Position numbers and translations under genes: made by a program
From: Spongiibacter taiwanensis
GTDB lineage: Bacteria > Pseudomonadota > Gammaproteobacteria > Pseudomonadales > Spongiibacteraceae
DNA: 64,000 nucleotides
Direction: 5' to 3'
NCBI RefSeq assembly: GCF_023702635.1
Contig: NZ_CP098455.1
Coordinates: forward strand, 2,914,001-2,978,000
Notes under the pieces: model-generated
The model's input: only the letters and a program-made list of their open reading frames with translations
Told to the model about the DNA's origin: nothing
Databases searched by the model: none
Shown here: positions 17,408 to 45,811 of the stretch, piece by piece
Position numbering within the stretch: the first letter of the stretch is position 1
How the letters are laid out: every line of letters begins with the position of its first letter

Positions 17408-18112
17408 ATGGGCAAAACGTTTTTTGTTGCGGGAACCGATACGGATGCGGGCAAGACCCTGATTTCTTGTGGTCTGCTAACGGCAGCAAACAAGATGGGA
17501 CTTTCTACCTTGGCGCTCAAGCCGGTGGCCGCCGGGGCAGAGCCCGGGCCGGAAGGGCCGGTGAACGGCGATGCCATGTTACTGCTGCAAACCATGACAG
17601 AGAAGCTGCCCTACTCTCAGGTGAATCCGGTTTTGTTTCAGGCGCCCATCGCGCCGCACATTGCCGCCGCCCAAGAGGGGCGACGGTTGCAGGTCGCCCA
17701 GCTGGCAGGTTATGTTCGCGGCGCCTTGATGAAGCCCGCCGACTTGAAATTGATCGAAGGAGCAGGCGGCTGGCGTGTGCCACTGAACATGCACCAAACC
17801 ATGGCCAGCCTGGCTGTGGAGCTGGAATTGCCAGTGATTATGGTGGTGGGGATGAAGCTGGGCTGCCTTAACCACGCCCTGCTAACAGCGCAGGCAATAG
17901 CCAACGATGGACTTCGGCTTGCAGGCTGGGTAGCGAATCGTATTGATCCCAACATGGACTGTTTTGAAGAAAATATGCAAACCCTGGCTGAAATGCTGCG
18001 CGCGCCCTGCTTGGGTATTGTTCCCCACTTGGCGGACCCAAGGGATTTTAACAAGGTCGCAAGCTACCTCGATCTGGGCGCGCTGGGGCTATCGCCGAAA
18101 GACCCGGCGTAG
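17408..18112 (+). CDS. bioD: dethiobiotin synthetase
   Basis: ATP-dependent carboxylation of 7,8-diaminononanoate to dethiobiotin. The start is the ATG at 17408 with AAAAGGA just upstream (234 aa); the frame extends back into bioHC but without reason to start there. The P-loop GTDTDAGKT lies at residues 8-16, a KPVAAG block follows, and the LIEGAGGWRVPL motif is present near residue 115. It is the last gene of the bio operon, 35 bases after bioHC, and a large palindromic repeat follows within about 50 bases. Confidence 0.96.
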   Translation: MGKTFFVAGTDTDAGKTLISCGLLTAANKMGLSTLALKPVAAGAEPGPEGPVNGDAMLLLQTMTEKLPYSQVNPVLFQAPIAPHIAAAQEGRRLQVAQLAGYVRGALMKPADLKLIEGAGGWRVPLNMHQTMASLAVELELPVIMVVGMKLGCLNHALLTAQAIANDGLRLAGWVANRIDPNMDCFEENMQTLAEMLRAPCLGIVPHLADPRDFNKVASYLDLGALGLSPKDPA

Positions 18113-18162: not shown

Positions 18163-18600
18163 ATGGTACTTACTTAAGCCTGTCATTCCCGCAAAGGCGC
18201 ACTACTGTCCGGAATAAATTGAGCCACACAGCTTGCAAGGACTAAATATCGTGGGCGGAAACAGCATCTGCCGGGGACGTGACTTGATTTAAGAAAGCCT
18301 CAAATATCGTCGTACCCGCGAACGCGGGTATCCAGTATGTTTGCTAACGTAGCTGGGTTTTCTGGATGCCCGCGTTCGCGAGCATGACGGCATAAAAGTC
18401 ATTCCGGATAGTAGTGCGCGAAGGCGGGGGTCCTGAAACGATAGCCCCCGGATATCGTCATACCCTAGAACGCGGGTATCCAGTATGTTTGCTAACGTAG
18501 CTGGATTTTCTGGATGCCCGCGTTCGCGAGCATGACGACACAAAAACTATTCCGGACAGTAGTGCGCCTTTGCGGGAAGGACAATCCGGACGATATTTGC
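18163..18600. repeat. large nested palindromic repeat after bioD
   Basis: A non-coding block built as hairpins within a hairpin. Outer arms 18187-18216 and 18548-18577 are perfect 30-bp reverse complements; weaker pairing continues outward (GGTACTTACTTAAGCC-like near 18163 against 18585-18600). Inside are two direct copies of a unit of about 115 bases (18304-18418 and 18452-18566, offset 148 bp). Each carries its own stem: CCCGCGAACGCGGG-type sequence, TATCCAG, then CTGGATGCCCGCGTTCGCG. No ORF or transposase is present. It resembles the dispersed palindromic repeats common in proteobacterial genomes and may also end bio operon transcription. Confidence 0.75.
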
Positions 18601-18730: not shown

Positions 18731-19084
18731 ATGACTGAGAGCACGGTAGCGCAGGGTGGTGGCGGTGAGGGAACAGCCAAGATTGTCTACATTCTTTATC
18801 TGATTGGCATTGTGTTTGGCATTACCGGCATTATCGGTGTGGTGATTGCTTATGTGAATAAAGGGGACGCGCCAGAATGGTTGAAGTCCCACTATCAGTT
18901 TCAGATTCGTACCTTTTGGATAGGGGCGCTGTACATCGTGATTGGCGCGATGTTGTCGATGGCGATTGTGGGCTACCTACTGCTGCTGTTTTGGGTGGTG
19001 TGGTTGATAGTGCGCTGCGTGAAGGGCATTAAAGCGCTGGACACCAAACAGCCTCATCCCGACCCGACCGGGTGGCTGTTCTAA
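18731..19084 (+). CDS. DUF4870-type small integral membrane protein
   Basis: A 117-aa protein with three hydrophobic segments (about residues 18-40, 60-83 and 84-100) and a polar loop containing KSHYQFQIRTFW. That spacing and the HYQFQIRTFW-type motif are typical of the DUF4870/Tic20-like small membrane family of unknown function. The start is an ATG with GGAGAAACAGG upstream. It is separated from bioD by the repeat block and is convergent with the amphi-Trp gene 10 bases away. No function can be assigned. Confidence 0.75.
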   Translation: MTESTVAQGGGGEGTAKIVYILYLIGIVFGITGIIGVVIAYVNKGDAPEWLKSHYQFQIRTFWIGALYIVIGAMLSMAIVGYLLLLFWVVWLIVRCVKGIKALDTKQPHPDPTGWLF

Positions 19085-19094
19085 GCCCGCGGCT

Positions 19095-19361
19095 TTATTC
19101 AACGTTGAGGGTTTTTCCCTCTTTAGGACCGTCATCAGTTTGCCAGCTCACCCGGATGTCCAGCCGGTGACGGTTGTCCTCTTGGCTGGCACTGACTCTC
19201 AGTGTCAGCAGCCCTTCGGGGTGCAGCAGAATCTCGCCATCATCGTCGCTGAAACGCAGTTCGCCACGATTCAGTCCCTTGGTCAGCGCTTTTAAAATTC
19301 CCTGTACGGTATCGCGATCCTGCAGCGACTCATGGCGAAAACTTTTCTTTGATTCGCGCAT
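19095..19361 (-). CDS. amphi-Trp domain protein (GAK-associated)
   Basis: An 88-aa protein with the layout of the amphi-Trp domain: an amphipathic helix (DTVQGILKALTKGLNRG), a short strand (ELRFSDDDGEILLHP), two further alternating strands, and the RVSWQ ending with its conserved Trp. The domain's biochemical role is unknown; members are recorded next to the GAK system (ATP-grasp/kinase/CofD-like), which lies immediately upstream here on the same strand. The start ATG has GAGGAAGAGC upstream. It is 117 bases from the metallophosphoesterase and could be the last gene of that leftward run. Confidence 0.7.
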   Translation of the reverse strand: MRESKKSFRHESLQDRDTVQGILKALTKGLNRGELRFSDDDGEILLHPEGLLTLRVSASQEDNRHRLDIRVSWQTDDGPKEGKTLNVE

Positions 19362-19478
19362 TGCGCTCTTCCTCGATGGCTATTTCAGCAGCTACTTTTT
19401 TAGCAACTAATAGTGGGCTTTCCCCAACGGGTTTGGAAGGCTTGGTGTAGAATTTCTGAGCGACCCAACCCCCGCCAT

Positions 19479-20861
19479 CTAGTGCCAGGTCAGATAACTG
19501 GCCGGTTCGAGCACGCGGGTCGCATGGTGGTCATTGCTGATGCCAATCACCTTGCCGGAGGGGTGAATCAGGGTGAAGCCGACACCGAGGCCCGAGAGGC
19601 CTTCTTTAATGCGCGAGTTGCGATCCATGGTGATGTCACCTTCAATGTGCAACAGCCCCTGTCGCAACATCAACCGCTGGCCATTGGTCTGGTTGCGGTG
19701 GCCGTGCATGATGGCGTGAATGCCGAGTTTGTTGACCTTTTTTACCCCCTTTTTGCTGAGCGGCAAATCGGTCTTGCGATACTTGGTACGCAGGGTGTTA
19801 TTGACGGCGCCATAATAAAACGAAAACAGGTCGTCGCTGTGTTGTTTGCGAAACAACTTGTTGAGGTGGCGATGGCCTTTTTTCTTCAGCAGGTCAGCTA
19901 CGTTATCGTCCAGGCCTGCATGGATAAACAGGAAGGAGCCCGCCCGATAGCTGAGCTTCATCTTGCTGAAGAACCAGCTGAACTCGCCGCCAGGGGCAAA
20001 GAACAGGTCAACACAGCGCTGGGCGGTTGCGTAGACTTGGCGCAGGTCCAGACCCGCATCCCGGTAGGCCTGTTCGAAACTGTCGCGCTTCTTCGCCATG
20101 CCGGCAATTTCCTTGGCAATGGCTTCGTCGCTCAATTTGCCTCTTGCCGCGTCGGCAAATGCTTGCGGCCAGGTGTCGCGGGGCATCAGCCGCTGGCGAC
20201 AGGTTGCCTCATCCGGTATCGAATGTGGCAGGGGATTGCCGCTCAGGTAGACGTCAAACACTTCCTTGAGCAGGGGCACCACCTTGGGTCCCATGCGCAG
20301 AAAGAAATGCTCGCTGAGGACGGTGCGGGGGCGGACCAGGGTACGCAGACCCACCAGCAAGCGGATGTCGTGGTTGCCTGCCAGGAGTTTGACCTTGGCG
20401 CCGGTGTCGAGCAATTGACGAATTTTGCGCAGCAACGCCAAGTTGCTCGGCCCCTTGTCTAAACAGTCACCGCCGATCACGAAGCAGGCCTTCTTGCCGT
20501 AGTCGCTGAGGCGCAACTGCTGGCCGTCTTCCACAATGCCGCCAGAGGCGATCAGTGAGGCTGCAAAGGCATCGGCATCCGCGTGGGCGTCGGAAAAAAA
20601 CAGGACCGGTTGCTTGGGCCAGCGCCATTGCTTGAGAGCGTGGCCACTGCGCAGGGCGGTGGCGAGGGCAATGTCGTTTTCGTCAGATGCAGTATTGTCC
20701 AGCGCCCATTGTTCCATGCGGCGAAGGGCATGGTTGGGAAAGTAGCGCTGCAAAACGGCTTGCTGAGAGGGCGTGGTAGTGCCGAGCTCGGGGAGTCGAA
20801 TGGCGGGCTCTACCGCTGTCGGCATCGAGTCGCCGTAATATCGCGTGATAGTGTCCATCAT
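19479..20861 (-). CDS. calcineurin-like metallophosphoesterase
   Basis: A 460-aa phosphoesterase with all five metal motifs in order: FSDAHAD (about residue 88), GGDCLDKG, LAGNHDIR, a His in FIHAGLD, and MHGHR. This set binds two metals, as in serine/threonine or nucleotide phosphatases. The N-terminal 80 residues are extra to the domain and unrecognised. Two ATGs stand at the start (20861 and 20858) without a strong ribosome site. It lies downstream of the kinase genes of the GAK-type cluster on the same strand, so it may reverse a phosphorylation made there; that is inference from context. Confidence 0.85.
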   Translation of the reverse strand: MMDTITRYYGDSMPTAVEPAIRLPELGTTTPSQQAVLQRYFPNHALRRMEQWALDNTASDENDIALATALRSGHALKQWRWPKQPVLFFSDAHADADAFAASLIASGGIVEDGQQLRLSDYGKKACFVIGGDCLDKGPSNLALLRKIRQLLDTGAKVKLLAGNHDIRLLVGLRTLVRPRTVLSEHFFLRMGPKVVPLLKEVFDVYLSGNPLPHSIPDEATCRQRLMPRDTWPQAFADAARGKLSDEAIAKEIAGMAKKRDSFEQAYRDAGLDLRQVYATAQRCVDLFFAPGGEFSWFFSKMKLSYRAGSFLFIHAGLDDNVADLLKKKGHRHLNKLFRKQHSDDLFSFYYGAVNNTLRTKYRKTDLPLSKKGVKKVNKLGIHAIMHGHRNQTNGQRLMLRQGLLHIEGDITMDRNSRIKEGLSGLGVGFTLIHPSGKVIGISNDHHATRVLEPASYLTWH

Positions 20862-21062
20862 AGTGCCGGGTATCCTCGCCTCGCTATTCAGGCCGCCTGG
20901 TGTCTGGCAGTGCGTTGTCCGTTGGACAGTGCTGCGCGCTGTTTTCTCACTTCCTCTTTATATTTCATCTTTGTTGCAAATCGATGACGAACTCGCTGCA
21001 ACCGCCGATGTCGCCGGGCAAGGGCAAAGTATGTGGGTGATATGCGGAGGATGCGCGGTGTA

Positions 21063-21752
21063 TTAATCTGCGTGGGCTTCGCGGTGACGGATTTTCCAAT
21101 TGCCGCCGATGTGATGCCAATGATCGTCGATCCGTTCCAGAAAGACAGGTTGGGCGTGGTACATGCTCAATGTGGGGATATCCGACTCTGCCAGCGCGCC
21201 CATCACCGATGCCGCATGACGGATAGCGGCGCCGTGGCCCACAAATACTTTCAGTTGAGGGTCACTGCCAGTGTTGGTCATGGCCCCTTCAATATGGCTG
21301 GCAACCCGGTGTCCTGCGTCCATCAATGATTCTGCACCGGGCAGGGGCAGGCGGAAATGACTGTCGCTTTTCCAGTTATCGGGCAGTGGTGGGCAGCGCG
21401 GGTCGCTGGCCACCGCTTGCTGAATTTGGGTCGTGGTGAGATTGGCAGCGCTGCCCACATTGCGTTCCCATAGCGCATCAAATGACGCGGTGGTCACTGC
21501 GGTGCCCGTTAGCCGAGTCAACTCGTCGGCCAGAATCTGCGCAGTCTGCCAGGCGCGTAACAGGCTGGAGCAGTCAATTTGGTGCGCCAGCGTGAGCTGA
21601 TGTTCGGCGCAGAAATCCATTAGTTGCGGGGCTGCGGCCCGGGCCTGGGCTCGGCCTGTTTCGGTGAGCGGCCAGGGTTGCAGGGCACTGGGGGTATCGG
21701 CCTGTTGGTGATAGTCGCCGTGACGGAGCAGGGCGATGACAGTTCTCACCAT
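21063..21752 (-). CDS. histidine phosphatase family protein (phosphoglycerate-mutase-like)
   Basis: A phosphatase of the RHG superfamily (229 aa). The catalytic LLRHGDY motif lies at about residues 7-13, and a second catalytic His is present in VGHGAAIRH. The start is the ATG at 21752 with GGGAGCG upstream, 2 bases beyond the stop of the HprK-like kinase, so the two are coupled. The general SixA/GpmB-like fold removes phosphate from phosphohistidine or small phospho-compounds. Its place in a cluster with two kinases and an ATP-grasp enzyme suggests a regulatory or salvage dephosphorylation step. Confidence 0.85.
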   Translation of the reverse strand: MVRTVIALLRHGDYHQQADTPSALQPWPLTETGRAQARAAAPQLMDFCAEHQLTLAHQIDCSSLLRAWQTAQILADELTRLTGTAVTTASFDALWERNVGSAANLTTTQIQQAVASDPRCPPLPDNWKSDSHFRLPLPGAESLMDAGHRVASHIEGAMTNTGSDPQLKVFVGHGAAIRHAASVMGALAESDIPTLSMYHAQPVFLERIDDHWHHIGGNWKIRHREAHAD

Positions 21753-21754
21753 GC

Positions 21755-22891
21755 TTACGCTCCCACCAGCGAGGTGATGGCATCGGCGGCCTTGGCAAAG
21801 TCGGCTCTGCCGGTGATTTCGTAGCACGCCACCCCCTTGAGCGCAGCCAGGTACTTCTCGGGCTTGGGCCTAATATCACCATCGAGGAAATGGCCCTCGC
21901 TGTCTTGATAAAACGGGCCGGGGGATTTCATTACCGCGGGCAGCAGTTCCCGACGTTGGTTGAGATCAACCTGTGTAATCGTGGTCTCTGCATCGGCGGC
22001 ATGGTGCCAGTTCAGGATAAACAGGGCCTTTAACGGCGCGTTGTGTTGAATGCGACCTTCGCCGTAGCAGGCGGTGATGGGCACATCGTACTTTTCCTCC
22101 AGCTCCCACAGGGCCTGCTTGGGCAAATTGGTGAGGGCCTGCTGGCGTGCCGTTGGCAGCAGGCTGACCAGCCGAAGGTTGTTGAGCAGGGTGCCGGGAT
22201 TCACCCGAGGCAGCTTGGGCACCCCGGCAGCCTGGGCGCCATTGCCCTCGACCTTGATGAACAAACGGTCATTGCTGACAAAGCGGGTTCGCTCACCTTC
22301 CATCAGGGTCAGCATCAGGGTGGACTTGCCACCACCGGAAAGACCAGCCAGCGCAATCGCCTGGTTCTGATGGGCATCGAGCACGACCCCCGCCGCATGA
22401 CAGATCAGCCAGCCCTGCTGCTGCAGATAGTTCATGTACTGATTGTTGATGAAGTTGATCACCTGATTGTCATTCTTCAGGCAGGGCCCCACCACCAGGG
22501 CTTCGGTCGGTGATTGGAGAAAGACCATGCCGGTGCGCACTTTGCGCAGCAATCGGGTGTTGGGTGTCAGTGCCAGGTAGCTGTCCTTGCGGGATTGCTT
22601 GCCCGGCTCCCGCTTCCAGTCTTTGAAGGCCAGATCCAACTCCGGTGCTGGCGCCTCAATGGCGGTAATGGTGATGTTAACTAGCTGATCGTTTGCGTCG
22701 CTGGCAGGCGATGCTGCTGTTGATGGGGCTGTTAGATGCGCCATATAGTGCGCAATCTTTGCTAGCAGGTTTTCATTGTTACTGCGCAGCTCCAGCGTCA
22801 CACCGGCGATGTGAAACTGCACCGCTCGCGGAAGGGGTTGGCGCTCCCCCAGTAATTGATGACGAAGGCGCTCGACGTTGTCGGTGGTCAT
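21755..22891 (-). CDS. HprK-related kinase B (GAK system)
   Basis: A 378-aa protein related to HPr kinase/phosphorylase in its core. The P-loop is AGLSGGGKST at residues 182-191, and a downstream FVSNDRLF block resembles the HprK Asp-containing strand. Residues 1-170 are a distinct N-terminal domain. It is not a true HprK: the length, N-terminus and context differ. Such HprK_rel_B proteins are recorded with a RimK-like ATP-grasp enzyme and a CofD-like protein, both of which are neighbours here. The substrate is unknown. It overlaps the ATP-grasp gene by 4 bases (ATGA). Confidence 0.82.
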   Translation of the reverse strand: MTTDNVERLRHQLLGERQPLPRAVQFHIAGVTLELRSNNENLLAKIAHYMAHLTAPSTAASPASDANDQLVNITITAIEAPAPELDLAFKDWKREPGKQSRKDSYLALTPNTRLLRKVRTGMVFLQSPTEALVVGPCLKNDNQVINFINNQYMNYLQQQGWLICHAAGVVLDAHQNQAIALAGLSGGGKSTLMLTLMEGERTRFVSNDRLFIKVEGNGAQAAGVPKLPRVNPGTLLNNLRLVSLLPTARQQALTNLPKQALWELEEKYDVPITACYGEGRIQHNAPLKALFILNWHHAADAETTITQVDLNQRRELLPAVMKSPGPFYQDSEGHFLDGDIRPKPEKYLAALKGVACYEITGRADFAKAADAITSLVGA

Positions 22892-23775
22892 GAAAGTTGC
22901 TCCACCGCGTAATCCGCATAGCGGGCGGCGGCGTCGATGCCCGCACCCTCAAGCGCGCCCTTGAATCCCCCAAAGGCGGACACCTCGAATACCACCGGAC
23001 CGTTATCGGTTTCGGCGATGTCGACGGTGGTGAAGTCCATACGGAAAGCGGCCTGGGCTCGGCGTGCAATGTCGATCATATCCGCCGGTGCCTGGTAGCT
23101 CTCATAACGGCCGCCGCTGTGGATGGTGGTGTTCCAGCTGGAAGACTGGCTTACCCGGGCATAGGTGCCCAAATACTCGCCCCCCAGAAACACCAGCGCC
23201 AAGTCTCTGCCGGGTAAATTTAGGCGCTTTTGAATGTACATCACCGGGTTGGCGGCCATAAAGGCCCGCACTGCAGCGCTGATTTCCTCACTGGGTTGAT
23301 CAGTGTCGATGATGCACATGCCCCGGGCCTTGGTGGAGTAGAGGGGTTTAAACACGGCGCTGCCAAAGCGGTGAATGGCATCCAGGGCCTGGTCGATATC
23401 TTCGGTCACGCAGGTTTCCGGCATGGGGATCTGCTGGGCCTGTAGAGCCATGGTGCCAGACAGTCGGTTGATCAGCCGAGCCATGGAGTTCACCGGGCTG
23501 AACACGCGTACCCCGGCTGCTTCGGCGAGGCGCAGCATTTCCAGTCGGTCCAGGCTTTGGGGGCTGTACTGGGCGGTGATTTTCTTGACGATAATACCGT
23601 CGAGCTGGCACAGGTCCTGATCGCGATACAGCAGGCGGCCCTGCTGTAGATCCATGCTCAGCTCATGCATGTCGACCACCAGGCGAAATCCTGTGCGTTG
23701 CTCCAGGGCGTCTGCCAGCACTTCGGTTGACCACTTTCCGGGAATGCCGACAACGGCGATACGTGGCTTAGGCAA
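22888..23775 (-). CDS. GAK system ATP-grasp enzyme (RimK-like)
   Basis: A 295-aa ATP-grasp ligase distantly related to ribosomal protein S6 modification protein RimK. ATP-grasp elements visible are the VFKPLYSTKARGM segment (nucleotide-binding Lys and flexible loop), the MYIQKRL strand with the family's acidic/basic residues, and the metal-site ending VVFEVSAFGGFKG. Enzymes of this fold join a carboxylate to an amine via acyl phosphate, so ligation of an amino acid or peptide to a small molecule or protein is likely. It overlaps both neighbours (4 and 8 bases), so kinase, ligase and phosphatase are made together. The product is not known. Confidence 0.82.
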   Translation of the reverse strand: MPKPRIAVVGIPGKWSTEVLADALEQRTGFRLVVDMHELSMDLQQGRLLYRDQDLCQLDGIIVKKITAQYSPQSLDRLEMLRLAEAAGVRVFSPVNSMARLINRLSGTMALQAQQIPMPETCVTEDIDQALDAIHRFGSAVFKPLYSTKARGMCIIDTDQPSEEISAAVRAFMAANPVMYIQKRLNLPGRDLALVFLGGEYLGTYARVSQSSSWNTTIHSGGRYESYQAPADMIDIARRAQAAFRMDFTTVDIAETDNGPVVFEVSAFGGFKGALEGAGIDAAARYADYAVEQLS

Positions 23776-25411
23776 TGAACATCTCCCTGACTGTCAGTGT
23801 AAATTTTTCCGGCTTCTGGGGGTTGGCGGCCAGTGCTTGCTCAAGCAAGTAGCGAGCTCGAAAGAACATGCCTTTAGCGTGAGCCTTGTCGAGGATAAAG
23901 CGGGTTGAGCTGGCAAAGGAGCGGGCCAGGGCGAGCGCCATGCGCAGATCGAAACTGGTGTCATCCTGCTCGCGCGCAAATGCACTGGCCGTCTCATGAA
24001 TACGCAATGCTGATTGCATTAAGCGTCGACGAACGGGGGTGTCCAGAATTTGCAGCCGATAATTGGACACCATAAATACCGACACATCCTGCACGTAATC
24101 CATATAGCGGGAGCGGTGCAGGTCGATGAAATTGATCTTCTGGCTGGCGGGGTCGTAAATAATGTTGTCGATATTGAAATCGCCGTGGATATACACCGAA
24201 AAGGGCGCCGCCAATTTGGCTTCCAGCTCGGTGGCCTGCTCGATAAGGGTGTCAAAGGCGGGCAAACGCAGCGCGTTGATGCGGCTGGGCGCGCGATTAA
24301 ACTCGGGGTGAATTTTGTAGACCGGGTCGATGCGTCGTTTTAGCTGGCCGCCAAAATCCGCAGTGACCGGTTCTTTGATCAGGGTTTCCCGCCATACCTT
24401 GTTTAACGTTTCAACGAGGCGGTCGTGGGCCTGCGCAAACAGATTGTCGTCGGCTTGTAAGGCCAGCTTTTCAAAGGTCAGTCCGGGCAAGTGCTCAATT
24501 AGCAGCGCGGCAGACTGGCCCCGTTTGTCGTAGGACAAGATTCGCGGTGCCAGCCCGGGATAAATATCGTGCCAGCTTTTAACGCCTTCCCGCTCCTCCT
24601 TGACCTTCTTTTTCTCACCATCTTTAAAGATTCCCAGATAGCTCTGGTCGGTTTCCTTGCCGCTGGAAACCCCGGCGATGGCGCTGCCAGATCGGGTTTC
24701 GGCAATGGTTTCAATTTTGACGTCGTCGACTTTCTGCTGGCGCTGCAGCTTTTCCACCGACGATTGCAGTGAGCGGTAGCGCTCAAGGCTCACGGTCTGG
24801 CCGACATTGGCTGAGATAATGGCTTCGCTGATATTCACCAGCGCGTCGCCCATTGACGCCACGCTCTGACTAACGAACAGCGCCTGGGCGAGATCTTCCG
24901 TCTGCTTCTTGTTGTTTTTCAGCGCCTGAATATAGCGCTTTTTCAGCTTGTTGCAGTCCTGCTCCAAGCGTCCTTCAAATCGGGTGATGCGCAGCGCCCG
25001 GCGACTTTTGTTGTCGCTGATGGCGGGTTCCAGCATTTCCAGCGCATCGCGAATGTGCTGCAACATGGGCACATAAAGGGTGGGGCGCAGCACTTCGGGG
25101 GCCGACATTCGCTCAACATGGCTGACACAGCCAATGGCCAGGGTGCCAATATCTTCCAACTGGGAGGCGATTTCCTCAATGCTGCGCAAGGCGGTGATCT
25201 GCGGGTGGCCCGGCTCAAACTGGGTCAGGTGTTGCAGGCAGCTGTTATGAATACGCTGCTTCAGATTCTGGATATACCCTTCCCGGCTGAGAATGTCCTT
25301 GGCATTGCCCTTGCCGACGTCGCCAAAAAAGACCTGCAGCTTTTCGACCAGCGAGTCGATTTCGACCTGCAGAAAATGCAGATTGCTGGCGATGCTGCTG
25401 GGGATTTCCAT
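23768..25411 (-). CDS. PhoU-like helical domain fused to aminoglycoside-phosphotransferase-type kinase
   Basis: A 547-aa two-domain protein. Residues 1 to about 240 are almost entirely helical with regular heptads and read like the PhoU phosphate-signalling fold. From about 290 onwards comes an APH/choline-kinase-like domain, with the catalytic loop HGDFNIDNIIYD near residue 410 and the metal motif FIDLHRSRY about 20 residues later. It is the first gene of the leftward kinase/ATP-grasp/HprK-like/phosphatase run and overlaps the ATP-grasp gene by 8 bases. A small-molecule or protein kinase gated by a PhoU-like sensor is a reasonable guess, not shown by sequence alone. Confidence 0.75.
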   Translation of the reverse strand: MEIPSSIASNLHFLQVEIDSLVEKLQVFFGDVGKGNAKDILSREGYIQNLKQRIHNSCLQHLTQFEPGHPQITALRSIEEIASQLEDIGTLAIGCVSHVERMSAPEVLRPTLYVPMLQHIRDALEMLEPAISDNKSRRALRITRFEGRLEQDCNKLKKRYIQALKNNKKQTEDLAQALFVSQSVASMGDALVNISEAIISANVGQTVSLERYRSLQSSVEKLQRQQKVDDVKIETIAETRSGSAIAGVSSGKETDQSYLGIFKDGEKKKVKEEREGVKSWHDIYPGLAPRILSYDKRGQSAALLIEHLPGLTFEKLALQADDNLFAQAHDRLVETLNKVWRETLIKEPVTADFGGQLKRRIDPVYKIHPEFNRAPSRINALRLPAFDTLIEQATELEAKLAAPFSVYIHGDFNIDNIIYDPASQKINFIDLHRSRYMDYVQDVSVFMVSNYRLQILDTPVRRRLMQSALRIHETASAFAREQDDTSFDLRMALALARSFASSTRFILDKAHAKGMFFRARYLLEQALAANPQKPEKFTLTVREMFIA

Positions 25412-25450
25412 AGGGCAGATCCGGGGTGTCTGATTGGCGGTGCAACAAAA

Positions 25451-25549
25451 TTGTCATAACGATACTGCTAAAGTAATACAGAATTGTTAAATTTGCTGCT
25501 GCATGGCCACCGAAGTGGCCGTTGGTAGCAGAACAAGGAGTTGTGGTTG
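25451..25549 (+). promoter_or_regulatory. promoter and leader of the CofD-like gene
   Basis: TTGTCA (25451-25456) and TAATAC (25474-25479) are spaced by 17 bp, a good sigma70 pair. The leader contains a small stem, GGCCAC-CGAA-GTGGCC (about 25505-25520), and the ribosome site AAGGAG at 25535-25540, 9 bases before the ATG at 25550. The opposite-strand promoter for the kinase gene (start 25411) must also lie here, but I could not choose one. Confidence 0.6.
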
Positions 25550-26746
25550 ATGTCGCCCATTCGTTTGAGCCGGACGGTTGAAATCCCTGATGGCCTGCGA
25601 ATCAGCCGCTATCGGAAGAGCCCCGAGCTCGGCCCCAAGGTGCTGTTTTTCAGTGGTGGCAGCGCGCTTAACTCGCTGTGCAAAACCCTCAAGGATTACA
25701 CCCACAACTCTACCCACCTGGTCACTCCCTTCGATTCCGGCGGCAGCTCCGCCGAGTTGCGCCGGGCCTTTGGCATGCCCTCGATCGGTGATTTACGCAG
25801 CCGGATGATGGCATTGGCCGACGAGTCGGTGCTGGGGCATCCGGATATCTTTCGCCTGTTTAACCATCGTTTTCCCAAAGGCGGCAGCAGTGACGCGCTG
25901 CGCGCTCAGCTAGAGACCATGGCCCAGGGCAAGGGTGAGCTGATGAGCGAAATCGCCAATCCGATGCGGCGTTTGATTTCTAATCAGCTCGGCTATTTTC
26001 TACAGGCAATGCCGGCCGATTTTAATTTGGCGGGTGCCAGTATCGGCAACCTGATTCTGACCGGCGGTTACCTCAACAATCACCGCCACCTCGATCCCAT
26101 TGTGTTTCTGTTCTCCAAATTGGTGAACGTGCAAGGCACCGTTCGCGCCATCGTTGATGAGGACTTGCACCTGGTTGCCGAGTTGGAGGATGGCTCTCGG
26201 GTGATCGGGCAGCACGCACTGACTGGCAAGGAAGTGCCGCCGCTGCAAAAAAAGGTGAAGCGGGTGTTTCTGTCGGCATCGGCGTCTCAGCCTGAGCCAA
26301 CACCCTTGTCGGTGCGCAAGAAAAATCGCAAGTTGATCGAGTCAGCCGAGCTGATTTGTTATCCCCCCGGTAGCTTTTATTCCAGCCTGCTAGTGAACTT
26401 GCTGCCATCGGGAGTGGGGCGGGCCATTGCCAGTAACGGCTGCCCAAAGGTGTATTTACCCAACCTGGGCCGCGACCCGGAGCAGTACGGCATGACGCTG
26501 GATGATTGTCTGGATCAACTGCTCGCCCAGTTACAGGCGGACTGCGGCGAGGAACCTACCCCGGTGTCGAGTCAGCTGAACTTTATCCTCATTGACAGCC
26601 GGCAGGGCAACTATGGCCCGCTGCCCTCGGCAAAGCGCCTGGAACAGCTGGGCATCTCGGTGATCGACACCCGGCTGGTCAGCAAGGCCAGCGCGCCTTA
26701 CTACGACAATGCGCTGCTGGTCGCGGCCCTGATGTCGCTGGTCTGA
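25550..26746 (+). CDS. GAK system CofD-like protein
   Basis: A 398-aa protein of the CofD/YvcK fold, which in CofD transfers a phospholactyl group to coenzyme F420 precursors. The N-terminal FFSGGSALNSLCKTL block resembles the GGTG-type nucleotide loop. The VTPFDSGGSS motif and the later ASIGNLILTGGYL motif are the usual CofD/YvcK signatures. F420 itself is not expected in this organism, and the protein is the lone rightward member of the cluster, divergent from the kinase operon. The start is the ATG at 25550 with AAGGAG 9 bases away, preferred over the TTG at 25541. Confidence 0.82.
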   Translation: MSPIRLSRTVEIPDGLRISRYRKSPELGPKVLFFSGGSALNSLCKTLKDYTHNSTHLVTPFDSGGSSAELRRAFGMPSIGDLRSRMMALADESVLGHPDIFRLFNHRFPKGGSSDALRAQLETMAQGKGELMSEIANPMRRLISNQLGYFLQAMPADFNLAGASIGNLILTGGYLNNHRHLDPIVFLFSKLVNVQGTVRAIVDEDLHLVAELEDGSRVIGQHALTGKEVPPLQKKVKRVFLSASASQPEPTPLSVRKKNRKLIESAELICYPPGSFYSSLLVNLLPSGVGRAIASNGCPKVYLPNLGRDPEQYGMTLDDCLDQLLAQLQADCGEEPTPVSSQLNFILIDSRQGNYGPLPSAKRLEQLGISVIDTRLVSKASAPYYDNALLVAALMSLV

Positions 26747-33866: not shown

Positions 33867-34574
33867 ATGCCAGATTATCGCAATATTGTGGTGCTGACCG
33901 GGGCGGGGATTTCCGCCGAATCCGGCATTAAGACCTTTCGGGCCAGCGACGGCCTGTGGGAAGACCACCGCATTGAAGATGTCGCCACGCCCGAAGGCTT
34001 CGAAGCCAATCCCGCGCTGGTGCACCAGTTTTACAACGGGCGCCGTCGCCAGTTACTGGGTGGCGAGGTCGCCCCCAATCCGGCCCATTTCGCCCTGGCG
34101 GAGCTGGAACAGCGCCTCAATGGCAAGGTGCTGCTGGTCACCCAGAATATCGACAATCTCCATGAGCGGGCCGGCTCTAAAAATCTGATTCATCTCCACG
34201 GCGAGCTGTTAAAAATGCGCTGCGCGGTCACCGATCAGTTATTCGATATTGAAGGAGATATCGACGGAGCTGACCTCTGCGCCTGCTGCGGCCAACCCGG
34301 CCGGCTGCGTCCCCATGTGGTCTGGTTTGGTGAAATGCCCCTGCAGATGGACGAGATATACGCGGCCCTGGACCAGTGTGATTTGTTTCTGTCCATCGGT
34401 ACCTCCGGAAACGTCTACCCCGCAGCGGGCTTTGTGCAGGTCGCCCGGGCGGCGGGGGCCGATACCATTGAAGTGAACCTTGAGCCGTCCCAGACCCGTA
34501 CTCTGTTTGCCGAGGGGCGCTATGGGTTGGCCAGTGAGGAACTGCCCAAGTTGGTTCGGGAGATTCTTGCCTAG
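33867..34574 (+). CDS. cobB: NAD+-dependent protein deacylase, sirtuin class III (CobB-like)
   Basis: Removes acyl groups, especially succinyl/malonyl, from lysines using NAD+ (235 aa). Motifs: [15 protein letters not shown] (NAD), TQNIDNLH with the catalytic His in LHGELL, and RPHVVWFGE. The FYNGRRR segment keeps the Tyr and Arg that in CobB/SIRT5 accept acidic acyl groups, fitting a cell rich in acyl-CoA pathways. A zinc-type Cys set (MRC, CACC) is present. The start is the ATG at 33867 with AAGGA; an earlier ATG at 33834 is less likely. It is followed by an AT-rich region and the integron-like array. Confidence 0.93.
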
Positions 34575-34808
34575 TGTGGGTGGTTGCGGCAGTGTTAAGC
34601 GGTTTTTTTTGTGGAGCGATTGTGTTTGTTCCTGACCCTATTTTTGGCGGTATTGGCAGGGTAAATTATCGCTTTGGCGATGCTGTGCGAAAGGTGTGAG
34701 TTTTTGCCTTTATTTATCAGGGTGTTAGAAAAGTTGCCTTTAAATTTTCGAATTATAAGGTATACCCGCTAATTAATATTATGAGGTCGAAGACCTCATT
34801 AACATGCT
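34575..34808. other. AT-rich gap before the integron-like array
   Basis: About 230 bases of markedly AT-richer DNA than the flanks, including a T8 run (34606-34613) and a small stem ATGAGGTC-GAA-GACCTCAT at 34781-34799 just before the first cassette junction. No ORF with a ribosome site, integrase fragment or convincing attI site was found. It may be the degraded remains of the integron platform. Confidence 0.45.
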
Positions 34809-35322
34809 GTTAGGTCTACATGTTGCCAATAAAAATGGAAGTGCAAATATGCTACAACATATTTTAGATTTACCTGTAATAGCACAGGGAGCCCTTGGCT
34901 CTGCTGCTTTCTGGTTGGTCTATGAAGTAAGCAAGCGGCTTATAAATGCTGGTTACAATTTACTTGGCAAATTTAGTAGCGAAACTAGAAGGGACTTGAA
35001 AAGTCTAGAGTTCTTCTACCATAAAAGATGTGCTGGAGGCAGTGAACGCACTTTTATTGTATCTATGTTTCATGCTCTCAATCGTCTTGTTATAGCATTA
35101 ATTTTTATTTGCCTTGGATTAATATCAGCGCCATGGATTGGTGCAGCCTCAGGAATAGCATACTTATTCGCAATCTTTAACTTGTTCATTTCCTTGCGCG
35201 CATTGAAGATATCATTTAGTACTGACATGACCGATGAAGAGCACGAAGCTAAAGCGAAAGAATTAGCAGAAGACCTAACAAGTCAAGAAGGGACGCCGTA
35301 AACGGCGCCCCTTCTTGAGGCG
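34809..35322 (+). mobile_element. integron gene cassette 1
   Basis: The junction GTTAGGT (34809-34815) fits the GTTRRRY core site. The cassette's own attC opens with ACCTAAC (35273-35279), its exact reverse complement, as expected for one circularisable cassette. The coding sequence occupies 34849-35301, oriented towards the attC. Boundaries by the G|TT cleavage rule are after G34809 and after G35322. Confidence 0.65.
34849..35301 (+). CDS. cassette-borne hypothetical membrane protein
   Basis: Not recognised. A 150-aa product from the ATG at 34849 (GGAAG upstream); an earlier ATG at 34804 would start inside the cassette junction. It has two hydrophobic stretches (about residues 12-28 and 75-115, the second long enough for two passes), an amphipathic N-terminus and a charged, acidic C-terminal tail (DEEHEAKAKELAEDL). 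This is compatible with an inner-membrane protein with cytosolic tail. Codon use is AT-rich, unlike the neighbours. The stop codon falls in the loop of the attC site, a common cassette feature. No function assigned. Confidence 0.65.
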   Translation: MLQHILDLPVIAQGALGSAAFWLVYEVSKRLINAGYNLLGKFSSETRRDLKSLEFFYHKRCAGGSERTFIVSMFHALNRLVIALIFICLGLISAPWIGAASGIAYLFAIFNLFISLRALKISFSTDMTDEEHEAKAKELAEDLTSQEGTP

Positions 35323-35329
35323 TTATACC
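35273..35329 (+). other. attC recombination site
   Basis: Core R'' ACCTAAC (35273-35279) and R' GTTATAC (35322-35328). Between them, L'' at 35283-35298 and L' at 35303-35318 are 16-base arms complementary at 15 of 16 positions, around a TAAA loop. The order R''-L''-loop-L'-R', the spacing and the GACGCCG/CGGCGCC stem closely resemble published attC sites of Pseudomonas/Vibrio-type cassettes. R' deviates from GTTRRRY by one base. Confidence 0.75.
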
Positions 35330-35353
35330 TAGCTAAGAAAGAATTTCCATCGA

Positions 35354-35707
35354 ATGAAAGACGCCGGCGTGAAATATGAGGTTCTGAGGATTGCCGAAAA
35401 TGAAATAGAGGTGAAAATCGATGTTTCTTACAATTTTTTGGTTGCCTTTCAGAAAACGTGGTATGAATTTAGATTTACCAATGAGGCATTTCGGCACTTC
35501 CAAGAATGTTTGGAAAAGGGCGTAGAATCTACCCACGGTACATCCTCTATCTGGGAAGCTAATAAAATTTTTATAAAAAAGCAGAATCACCCAAACAATT
35601 ACCGAAACGTGCGTTTCTATAGAAGGTTTTTTATACTCGGCTTCAACATTGTGCCAGCTGTGTTGTCTCAAGATATTGTCCGAGGCATCGTGGCAGCAAA
35701 GGTATAA
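35354..35707 (+). CDS. cassette-borne hypothetical protein
   Basis: Not recognised. A 117-aa soluble protein with no signal peptide or clear transmembrane helix. It is rich in aromatic and basic residues in the C-terminal half (YRNVRFYRRFFILGF) and has an alternating strand-like N-terminal half (VLRIAENEIEVKIDVSYNF). The gene is AT-rich. It begins 25 bases after the attC of cassette 1, and its stop codon lies inside GTATAAC (35702-35708), the exact complement of GTTATAC at the cassette's left junction. This supports its being a second cassette. The ribosome site is weak, so expression may depend on read-through. Confidence 0.6.
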   Translation: MKDAGVKYEVLRIAENEIEVKIDVSYNFLVAFQKTWYEFRFTNEAFRHFQECLEKGVESTHGTSSIWEANKIFIKKQNHPNNYRNVRFYRRFFILGFNIVPAVLSQDIVRGIVAAKV

Positions 35708-35772
35708 CAAGCGACTGTGATCCCAAGTCAACCTAATAGCCGACTAAATCTATATTGTTTGCCTCGTTACAA
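35702..35772 (+). other. possible degenerate second attC site
   Basis: GTATAAC (35702-35708) is the exact reverse complement of the left junction of cassette 2, and GTTACAA (35766-35772) could be the far core site. I could not see good L''/L' pairing between them, so this is a weak call resting on the junction rule. Confidence 0.35.
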
Positions 35773-35774
35773 CT

Positions 35775-36080
35775 CTACGTGCCACGCTTGATATCACGGT
35801 AGAAATTTTCATGGGAACCAAGCACCATTAATTCCAAAATCAACTGTCCTTCATCAAAACTATATCCGAGCAAGGTTAGCTGCTTGTTCATCTTGAATTT
35901 ATGTACACGCAAAAAAACTAGGTCGCCTTTCTTCTGCTCCCCAAGTTTTGGGTCTTTCATCAGCGCTTTAATAGCTGTATCCAAATCCTTTTTTTGGTTT
36001 GGCTTCAACTTTTTTACCACCTTTTTGAACGTAGGTGTTTGTAATACGCTAACGACTTTAGCCAAAGTCGTATTCCTCAA
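35775..36080 (-). CDS. RelE/ParE-family toxin
   Basis: A 101-aa basic protein of the RelE/ParE fold. It has an N-terminal helical hairpin rich in Lys (FKKVVKKLKPNQKKDLD), a strand set (GDLVFLRVHKFKMNKQLTLLGYSF) and the C-terminal LILELMVLGSHENFYRDIKR typical of the mRNA-interferase/gyrase-poison family. It overlaps the antitoxin gene by 23 bases. Start codons are TTG: 36080, or 36065 (with GAGG 9 bases before). Together with the antitoxin it forms a toxin-antitoxin pair lying within the cassette-like region but facing the opposite way, as cassette-borne TA pairs with their own promoter often do. Confidence 0.8.
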   Translation of the reverse strand: MRNTTLAKVVSVLQTPTFKKVVKKLKPNQKKDLDTAIKALMKDPKLGEQKKGDLVFLRVHKFKMNKQLTLLGYSFDEGQLILELMVLGSHENFYRDIKRGT

Positions 36081-44943: not shown

Positions 44944-44971
44944 TCCCGCCCAATCTGTGGCAGATTGTTTA

Positions 44972-45251
44972 GGGCCTGTTAACACTAATTGGATTGTCAC
45001 TGTTGAGGCTAAAAACGCGCCAATCACGCGGGCCTCGCCGGGACGCGAGGAGAGCAGTTTGGTCACTCCAAACAAACGAGGAGCAACACAGAGTGGCGCT
45101 TTTTTAGCCTCAACCCCTAGGGCTGGGGCCATTTTTGCCCCCAGCGTTGTTGCCAGCCACTTGTTTAGAATGACTAAACGGCGCGCCTGTCGCCGAGCTG
45201 GCGGCAAAAATGACCGCCAGCAGTAATAATCCAATTAGTGTTAACAGGCCC
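44972..45251. mobile_element. MITE-like non-autonomous element
   Basis: Near-280-base element with perfect terminal inverted repeats of about 25 bp (44971-44995 against 45228-45252, beginning GGGCCTGTTAACAC). It is flanked by TTA on both sides (44969-44971 and 45252-45254), a possible 3-bp target duplication. Inside, GTTGAGGCTAAAAA (45002-45015) pairs with TTTTTAGCCTCAAC (45101-45114), and further stems occur near 45130 and 45198-45222. There is no transposase or plausible ORF. Its right end abuts the start codon of the shikimate-kinase-like gene. Relation to an IS5-type family is suggested only by TIR and TSD style. Confidence 0.7.
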
Positions 45252-45253
45252 TT

Positions 45254-45811
45254 ATGTCCAGCCCCTCTTCCCCTGAGTTACCGCCCATGCCACCTCCCAT
45301 CAAGGCCCGCTCACTGGTGCTGATCGGCATGCCTGCCTCGGGCAAGTCCACCCTGGCAAGTCTTCTGGCATCCACCTTGGGGTGGCAGACCGTAGATACC
45401 GATGACCTGATCGTTCAGGCCAGTGGCTGCTCATTGCAGGACATTGTCGATGCAAAGGGTTATCTCGCCCTTCGTGAGGTAGAAGAGCGGGCGATTTTGA
45501 TGGCTGACTTCGCCGGTAAGGTCGTGGCGACTGGCGGCAGTGCGGTCTACAGCGAGCCGGCGATGCGCCATTTACAGCAATATGGCCCGCTGGTGTTTTT
45601 AAATGTTCCATTGGACGAGTTGCAACGGCGACTGGGTAATTTCGCCATGCGCGGTATTGCCGCCGCGCCAGGAACGGATTTAGCGGCCCTGTACCAGCAA
45701 CGCCAGCCCCTGTACGAGCGCTGGGCCGATGTCACCATTGCGGTGGGTAAGGAGAACGAAACGGCGCTGGCCGTGCGCATCCTGCAGCAGCTGTCTATTG
45801 CGGGAATGTAA
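45254..45811 (+). CDS. shikimate-kinase-like P-loop kinase
   Basis: A 185-aa kinase with the shikimate kinase fold. P-loop GMPASGKST is at residues 25-33, DTDDLIVQASG fits the shikimate-binding/Asp region, ATGGSAVYSEPAM resembles the GGG segment, and the C-terminal lid has Arg/Gln-rich residues. It lacks some classical shikimate-contact residues by eye, so AroK function is not certain. The ATG at 45254 is fused to the end of the MITE-like element and has no ribosome site; the ATG at 45287 is an alternative. It precedes a pterin-type gene pair. Confidence 0.75.
   Translation: MSSPSSPELPPMPPPIKARSLVLIGMPASGKSTLASLLASTLGWQTVDTDDLIVQASGCSLQDIVDAKGYLALREVEERAILMADFAGKVVATGGSAVYSEPAMRHLQQYGPLVFLNVPLDELQRRLGNFAMRGIAAAPGTDLAALYQQRQPLYERWADVTIAVGKENETALAVRILQQLSIAGM

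Follow-up and report, generated by a model that had tools for sequence, protein, structure and literature searches.

A six-gene GAK core in Spongiibacter taiwanensis: a possible build-and-erase phosphorylation cycle with ties to phosphate homeostasis

The window analysed here is a 64,000-nucleotide stretch of the Spongiibacter taiwanensis genome (contig NZ_CP098455.1, positions 2,914,001 to 2,978,000 of the forward strand; the genome is one contig of 3.71 Mb). Positions 19095-26746 of the window hold seven genes of the GAK system, a family that is already named in NCBIfam. We find that six of these genes form a core that recurs as a unit: a PhoU-APH/EcKL fusion kinase (PhoU-APH), an ATP-grasp enzyme, an HprK-related kinase B (HprK-B), an RHG (histidine) phosphatase, a PPP-like metallophosphoesterase (MPE) and an amphi-Trp protein. 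We tentatively favour, at somewhat less than an even chance, the reading that this core runs a build-and-erase cycle of phosphorylation that is tied to phosphate homeostasis, with the roles assigned to its parts below. The evidence consists of the co-location of the genes, their correlated divergence, the GAK specificity of the MPE in our genome sample, conserved active-site residues and statistical links to phosphate. These phosphate links are an addition to an earlier, sequence-only reading of the same DNA.

That reading had recognised a GAK system in seven neighbouring genes, and both points were confirmed: the seven open reading frames (ORFs) lie where it had placed them, and in a hidden Markov model search four NCBIfam models (HprK_rel_B, grasp_GAK, CofD_rel_GAK and amphi-Trp) exceeded their curated cut-offs within one cluster (Table 1). 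PhoU-APH, RHG and MPE matched general families only, with no GAK-named model among their NCBIfam and Pfam matches; in the public annotation of plasmid copies they appear as an (aminoglycoside) phosphotransferase, a histidine phosphatase and a metallophosphoesterase beside GAK-named genes. The order of transcription on the minus strand is PhoU-APH, ATP-grasp, HprK-B, RHG, MPE and amphi-Trp, with the CofD-like gene divergent. The tight overlaps of 4 to 8 bases described previously hold for the first three genes, since the ORF coordinates place 8 shared bases between PhoU-APH and ATP-grasp and 4 between ATP-grasp and HprK-B. They extend over only part of the operon, because MPE and amphi-Trp are set off by spacers of 201 and 117 bases, respectively. 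With its first GTG as start, the RHG ORF would overlap HprK-B by 73 bases; the start is likely the ATG at 21752, 2 bases past the HprK-B stop.

Table 1. Coordinates of the GAK genes and of the region between the operon and the divergent gene, in window positions
Feature	Position	Strand	Remarks
PhoU-APH/EcKL fusion kinase, 547 amino acids	23768..25411	-	first gene in operon; Pfam PhoU 38.4, APH 39.7, EcKL 35.5 bits
GAK ATP-grasp enzyme, 295 amino acids, TTG start	22888..23775	-	TIGR04356 (grasp_GAK) 441 bits, cut-off 300
HprK-related kinase B (HprK-B), 378 amino acids	21755..22891	-	TIGR04355 (HprK_rel_B) 349.9 bits, cut-off 200
RHG (histidine) phosphatase, branch 1	21063..21752	-	Pfam His_Phos_1 68.6 bits
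PPP-like metallophosphoesterase (MPE), 460 amino acids, GAK-specific subfamily	19479..20861	-	Pfam Metallophos 25.2 bits
Amphi-Trp protein, 88 amino acids, N-terminal FRHESLQD motif	19095..19361	-	TIGR04354 (amphi-Trp) 70.2 bits, cut-off 31
CofD/YvcK-like protein, 401 amino acids, divergent, optional component	25541..26746	+	TIGR04357 (CofD_rel_GAK) 539.5 bits, cut-off 340
Intergenic region between CofD-like gene and operon, likely promoter region	25412..25540	.	best PHO-box-like site 8.9 bits

The neighbourhood set comprised 98 loci, 18 from sampled genomes and the best 80 of 499 stretches ranked by ATP-grasp similarity. Because loci were picked by their similarity to the ATP-grasp query, the set is biased to close relatives. 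Three duplicates (L045, L046 and L050, equal to L073, L066 and L123) were removed for the 65-locus, PHO-box and final residue counts, and were kept in the 98-locus neighbourhood counts and in the distance matrices. To enter the 65-locus set, a non-duplicate locus needed 5 kb or more upstream of the ATP-grasp gene and 5.5 kb or more downstream of it; a gene was scored present at 40 bits or half coverage. All six core genes recur jointly in 61 of these 65 loci, which excludes chance and shows co-location in relatives, as opposed to scattering. ATP-grasp, HprK-B, PhoU-APH and MPE were each found in all 65 (the MPE of L075 is a fragment, with 88 of 460 residues aligned), RHG and amphi-Trp in 63 each, and CofD in 29. 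PhoU-APH, RHG and MPE are as much core as the GAK parts named in NCBIfam. Pairwise distance matrices of the seven families correlate with r of 0.69-0.89, values inflated by common ancestry and by the three duplicate loci.

The MPE, previously suspected to be a new component, is GAK-specific in a phylum sample of 299 genomes: an alignment search at E 1e-10 returned matches in 14 of them, all with GAK genes. Thirteen of the 14 are the 13 genomes with HprK-B over cut-off, and the fourteenth (G220) carries an incomplete HprK-B gene on the contig of its MPE match. Genome G070, outside these 14, holds incomplete copies of ATP-grasp and HprK-B where a contig ends, and gave no MPE match. Across the same sample, ATP-grasp was over cut-off in 12 genomes, HprK-B in 13 and amphi-Trp in 19, the last being present as a single copy in the S. 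taiwanensis genome. Among 18 genomes of the same genus, HprK-B was over cut-off in 8 and CofD in 7, and one of them (G010) has the six genes without CofD. Scanning genomes of 84,980 species with an ATP-grasp alignment yielded the 499 stretches encoding relatives, not necessarily all of them GAK; record titles among the best 80 are mostly from Gamma- and Alphaproteobacteria, plus Stieleria and Rhodopirellula. GAK occurs on 5 plasmid records, and the six-gene order is identical on Rhodobacterales plasmids of Tritonibacter, Pseudooceanicola and Qingshengfaniella (L194, L195 and L196).

On the CofD-like protein the earlier view changes: in 32 GAK genomes searched, CofD lies within the locus in 5 and elsewhere in 13, and 14 have none over cut-off, so it is not core. 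The protein retains D65 and GGSS67-70 in 39 of 39 aligned sequences and matches the general Pfam CofD domain (139.8 bits). Judged by sequence it appears closer to YvcK/GlmR (UPF0052) than to the F420 CofD: it matches the YvcK model TIGR01826 and solved YvcK-type structures, although its 130.9 bits fall under the TIGR01826 cut-off (196). At E 0.01 NCBIfam reported only TIGR04357 and TIGR01826 for it, and no model for the F420 enzyme. The characterized relative GlmR/YvcK is described in two papers as binding uridine diphosphate N-acetylglucosamine (PMC7525490) and as having uridyltransferase activity (PMC10128056). In several Roseibium-type genomes (L159-L170) a glycerate 2-kinase-like gene of the MOFRL family adjoins CofD. 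The genes around this pair presumably form a mannosylglycerate-use operon, and the kinase was rejected as a substrate clue as it is confined to one clade.

Residues expected to have catalytic roles in the conserved motifs of these enzyme families are kept throughout the kinases and phosphatases. A protein entered the aligned sets only if its alignment spanned 85% of the window protein, and n differs by family because of this filter. HprK-B has GGGKS186-190 and NDR207-209 in 85 of 85 sequences; PhoU-APH has K263, E273, HGD409-411, N416 and D430 in 88 of 88; RHG has R11, H12, R67, E97 and H174 in 84 of 84 (the numbering counts one residue before the ATG); and MPE has D91, H93, D132, N163, H164, H314 and H388 in 50 of 50. 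HprK-B resembles HprK/P in being an HprK-related P-loop kinase with conserved GGGKS and ND motifs, but differs in having no Pfam HprK match at E 0.01; for amphi-Trp, the small partner in GAK, no match to an HPr-like protein was seen. Because kinases and phosphatases are co-conserved with intact active-site residues, a reversible cycle is plausible.

The sequence-only reading had left the chemistry of this cycle as phosphorylation or ligation. By sequence a phosphorylation cycle is the plausible half of that proposal, and the ATP-grasp enzyme casts doubt on the other. By sequence it shares the family and fold of the RimK, MptN and LysX ligases, with solved RimK and LysX structures among its matches, and K143, D252 and E264 are kept. 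Its score against the rimK_fam model TIGR00768 is 113.4 bits, under the cut-off of 143.4, and after grasp_GAK its best NCBIfam score, 151.3 bits, is against the model of the pterin glutamate ligase MptN. Two Asn residues have roles in the RimK active site, the second as a metal ligand. In the GAK enzymes these positions are T217 and S266 in 95 of 95 aligned proteins, whereas 15 of 17 RimK-like controls carry Asn; GAK proteins also have K149-A150 where 15 of 17 controls have Gln and Gly. The control set consisted of 17 ORFs, at least one of which is visibly misaligned. Because T217 and S266 replace the Asn residues of RimK, ligation is doubtful, and classical ligase chemistry in the GAK enzyme appears uncertain.

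From these features we infer the acceptor, the order of steps, the gating by PhoU, the role of amphi-Trp and every enzyme activity in the following scheme. The PhoU-APH/EcKL kinase, HprK-B and the altered RimK-like ATP-grasp enzyme would transfer phosphoryl groups to a common acceptor, most probably a small molecule ending with several phosphates or a pyrophosphate. RHG and the PPP-like MPE, joined in over half of the loci by NUDIX or SixA-NUDIX proteins, would strip these groups again. Amphi-Trp would be a small partner devoted to the system, carrying or reading the product, PhoU may act as a gate, and the CofD/YvcK-like protein could be an optional nucleotide-dependent partner.

The lean of GAK towards phosphate metabolism is statistical, and comes from the PhoU domain, from CHAD or Na/Pi neighbours in some lineages and from PHO-box-like sites. 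SixA-NUDIX fusions occur in 40 of the 65 loci, stand-alone NUDIX genes in 38, CHAD genes in 8 (10 of 98 in the full neighbourhood set) and Na/Pi cotransporters in 7; CYTH-like genes were seen in 3 loci, one of them Pfam-confirmed. Genome-wide CHAD counts, made for 50 of the 80 best loci, gave 57 matches (some of them fragments) in 50 GAK genomes, with a CHAD gene inside the locus in 8 of the 50, where hand arithmetic from genome sizes gives about 0.27 expected; several of the eight are related. Of 87 loci, 14 have a PHO-box-like site of at least 12 bits upstream of the operon, 9 of the sites being oriented with the operon; grouped by identity, the hits come from 9 of 37 clusters. When a nearly identical set of 88 regions was shuffled, 1.05 sites were expected as against 14. 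None of 400 column-permuted matrices reached 14, and the best of them (13) itself resembles a PHO half-site. Among control genes drawn from these loci 9 of 396 had a site (Fisher p 3e-6), as had 6 of 212 AT-rich controls. The matrix weights were entered by hand; its consensus and layout agree with PMC4415409, which gives the PHO box as a CTGTCAT consensus in a two-repeat layout. Upstream of phoB, the matrix recovers a site in 13 of the 18 genomes with GAK that were scanned.

Several results weigh against the favoured cycle or its phosphate link. In the window's own cluster no NUDIX, SixA-NUDIX, CHAD, CYTH-like or Na/Pi gene was found, and its upstream region has no clear PHO box (Table 1). Most upstream regions (73 of 87) have no 12-bit site, and 5 of the 14 sites are oriented against the operon. 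The contrast shrinks with intergenic controls, which gave 8 sites in 190 as against 14 in 87 (p 0.0012). Among those 8 hits, L072 and L096 are GAK promoters starting with a NUDIX gene, and L052 and L116 precede a CHAD and a CYTH gene, respectively, both beside GAK. The matrix misses phoB of Roseibium and Thalassospira, and because it failed on the phoB of Thalassospira, the GAK PHO site there is unvalidated. PHO boxes before stand-alone CofD genes were rejected, as 0 of 13 upstream regions reached 12 bits. In the window's genus the PHO-like sites of several loci also sit within a TTGTC-GACAA inverted repeat, so another regulator is possible there. Finally, the predicted MPE structure (predicted local distance difference test score, pLDDT, 90.3) has as its nearest PDB match 1v73, a cold-active protein-tyrosine phosphatase of Shewanella (E 7e-8, template modelling score 0.50 by target), followed by PPP phosphatases such as PP2A, PP1, PP5 and calcineurin. 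Because the model is closest to protein phosphatases, it favours a protein target.

This last point belongs to the main rival of the favoured cycle, a reversible protein modification centred on amphi-Trp, which we regard as doubtful. Here HprK-B would phosphorylate amphi-Trp (His10/Ser12) or another protein, MPE and RHG would reverse the step, and the ATP-grasp enzyme would add amino acids as RimK does. Besides the MPE model, this account has in its favour the membership of HprK-B and the ATP-grasp enzyme in the HprK-related and RimK-like families, and the N-terminal F-R-H-E-S-L-Q-D motif of GAK amphi-Trp proteins, with H10 and S12 in 65 of 66 aligned sequences. The motif is missing from the 7 over-cut-off amphi-Trp proteins in genomes without GAK, and an eighth match, below cut-off in another such genome (L190), has FRHDG and lacks the Ser-Leu; the comparison covered 20 displayed matches, the protein itself not being displayed for L175 and L181. 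Against it, G178 and G194 keep HprK-B but have Ala in place of S12, and G194 also has Tyr in place of H10; Ser12 was accordingly rejected as a universal HprK-B target. The amphi-Trp model (pLDDT 87.6) has one helix and four strands and gave no Foldseek match at E <1 (best PDB match E 1.1); on this structural comparison, with no search directed at an HPr gene, amphi-Trp was rejected as an HPr-like protein. The C terminus of amphi-Trp is variable, unlike the tail target of RimK, the two RimK asparagines are lost from the ATP-grasp enzyme, and a small molecule explains the NUDIX hydrolases better.

The loss of the ligase asparagines bears equally on a third account, the biosynthesis of a phosphorylated cofactor carrying amino acids, assembled much as the F420 tail is, in which transfer by the CofD-like protein would be followed by amino-acid addition by the ATP-grasp enzyme, with the phosphatases in processing. 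The joint presence of CofD-like and RimK-like enzymes and the rank of MptN among the ATP-grasp matches speak for it. We consider it unlikely given that CofD is absent from many GAK genomes and resembles YvcK, not the F420 enzyme, and that no further biosynthetic gene recurs at the locus in the neighbourhood set. A mobile defence or conflict system would fit the patchy occurrence within the genus and the plasmid records noted above, but is highly improbable: PADLOC models matched 0 of 7 proteins at E 0.001, on which ground a defence role was rejected, no phage record matched the ATP-grasp protein at E 1e-20, and no defence genes were recognised among the recurring neighbours listed.

Returning to the build-and-erase phosphorylation cycle, a more specific form of it rests on analogy and is, in our estimate, a long shot. 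The kinase of PPIP5K is an ATP-grasp enzyme. By comparison, GAK could be a bacterial counterpart of inositol-pyrophosphate signalling, in which an ATP-grasp enzyme without the ligase asparagines would be a kinase that joins the PhoU-gated kinase in making a multiply phosphorylated messenger of phosphate status, to be erased by RHG, PPP-like and NUDIX enzymes and read by amphi-Trp. The likeness to the inositol-pyrophosphate cycle (PPIP5K with its phosphatase domain, and NUDIX) is one of working principle only, a kinase, a histidine phosphatase and a NUDIX enzyme balancing a phosphate-linked signal; GAK differs in consisting of separate bacterial genes with a RimK-like ATP-grasp enzyme. PMC11836120 and PMC11323792 present inositol pyrophosphates as governed by kinase, histidine-phosphatase and NUDIX activities, and PMC8064635 lists diphosphoinositides, dinucleotides and polyphosphates as substrates of a yeast NUDIX enzyme.

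Around the cluster, a gene for a DUF4870 protein (window 18731-19084) adjoins amphi-Trp, and BLAST places a relative close to CofD at 3 of the 13 stand-alone CofD loci (L162-L164). Since DUF4870 was seen nowhere else but in the window, it was rejected as a GAK component. Between this gene and an ORF ending at 18112, positions 18181-18583 contain several inverted repeats along with two direct 125-nt copies that are 89% identical. Window 44968-45256 is a repeat element of roughly 290 bp with several long copies in the S. taiwanensis genome (34 match places); it occurs twice in L043, where one copy separates the RHG gene from the MPE gene. G+C content drops to 0.458 at window 34001-36000, with neighbouring 2-kb steps at 0.565-0.584.

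GAK has so far consisted of database family names without function; a keyword search of the open-access literature found no paper on it, although subscription papers, supplements and other wording may be missed by such a search. Many marine bacteria carry the system as a single unit. Its six-gene core, a phosphatase subfamily that is GAK-only in our sample, an atypical ATP-grasp enzyme and the lean towards phosphate turn these names into a testable pathway, and the phosphate link, if true, would point to an overlooked phosphate-signalling or phosphate-storage chemistry in marine bacteria.

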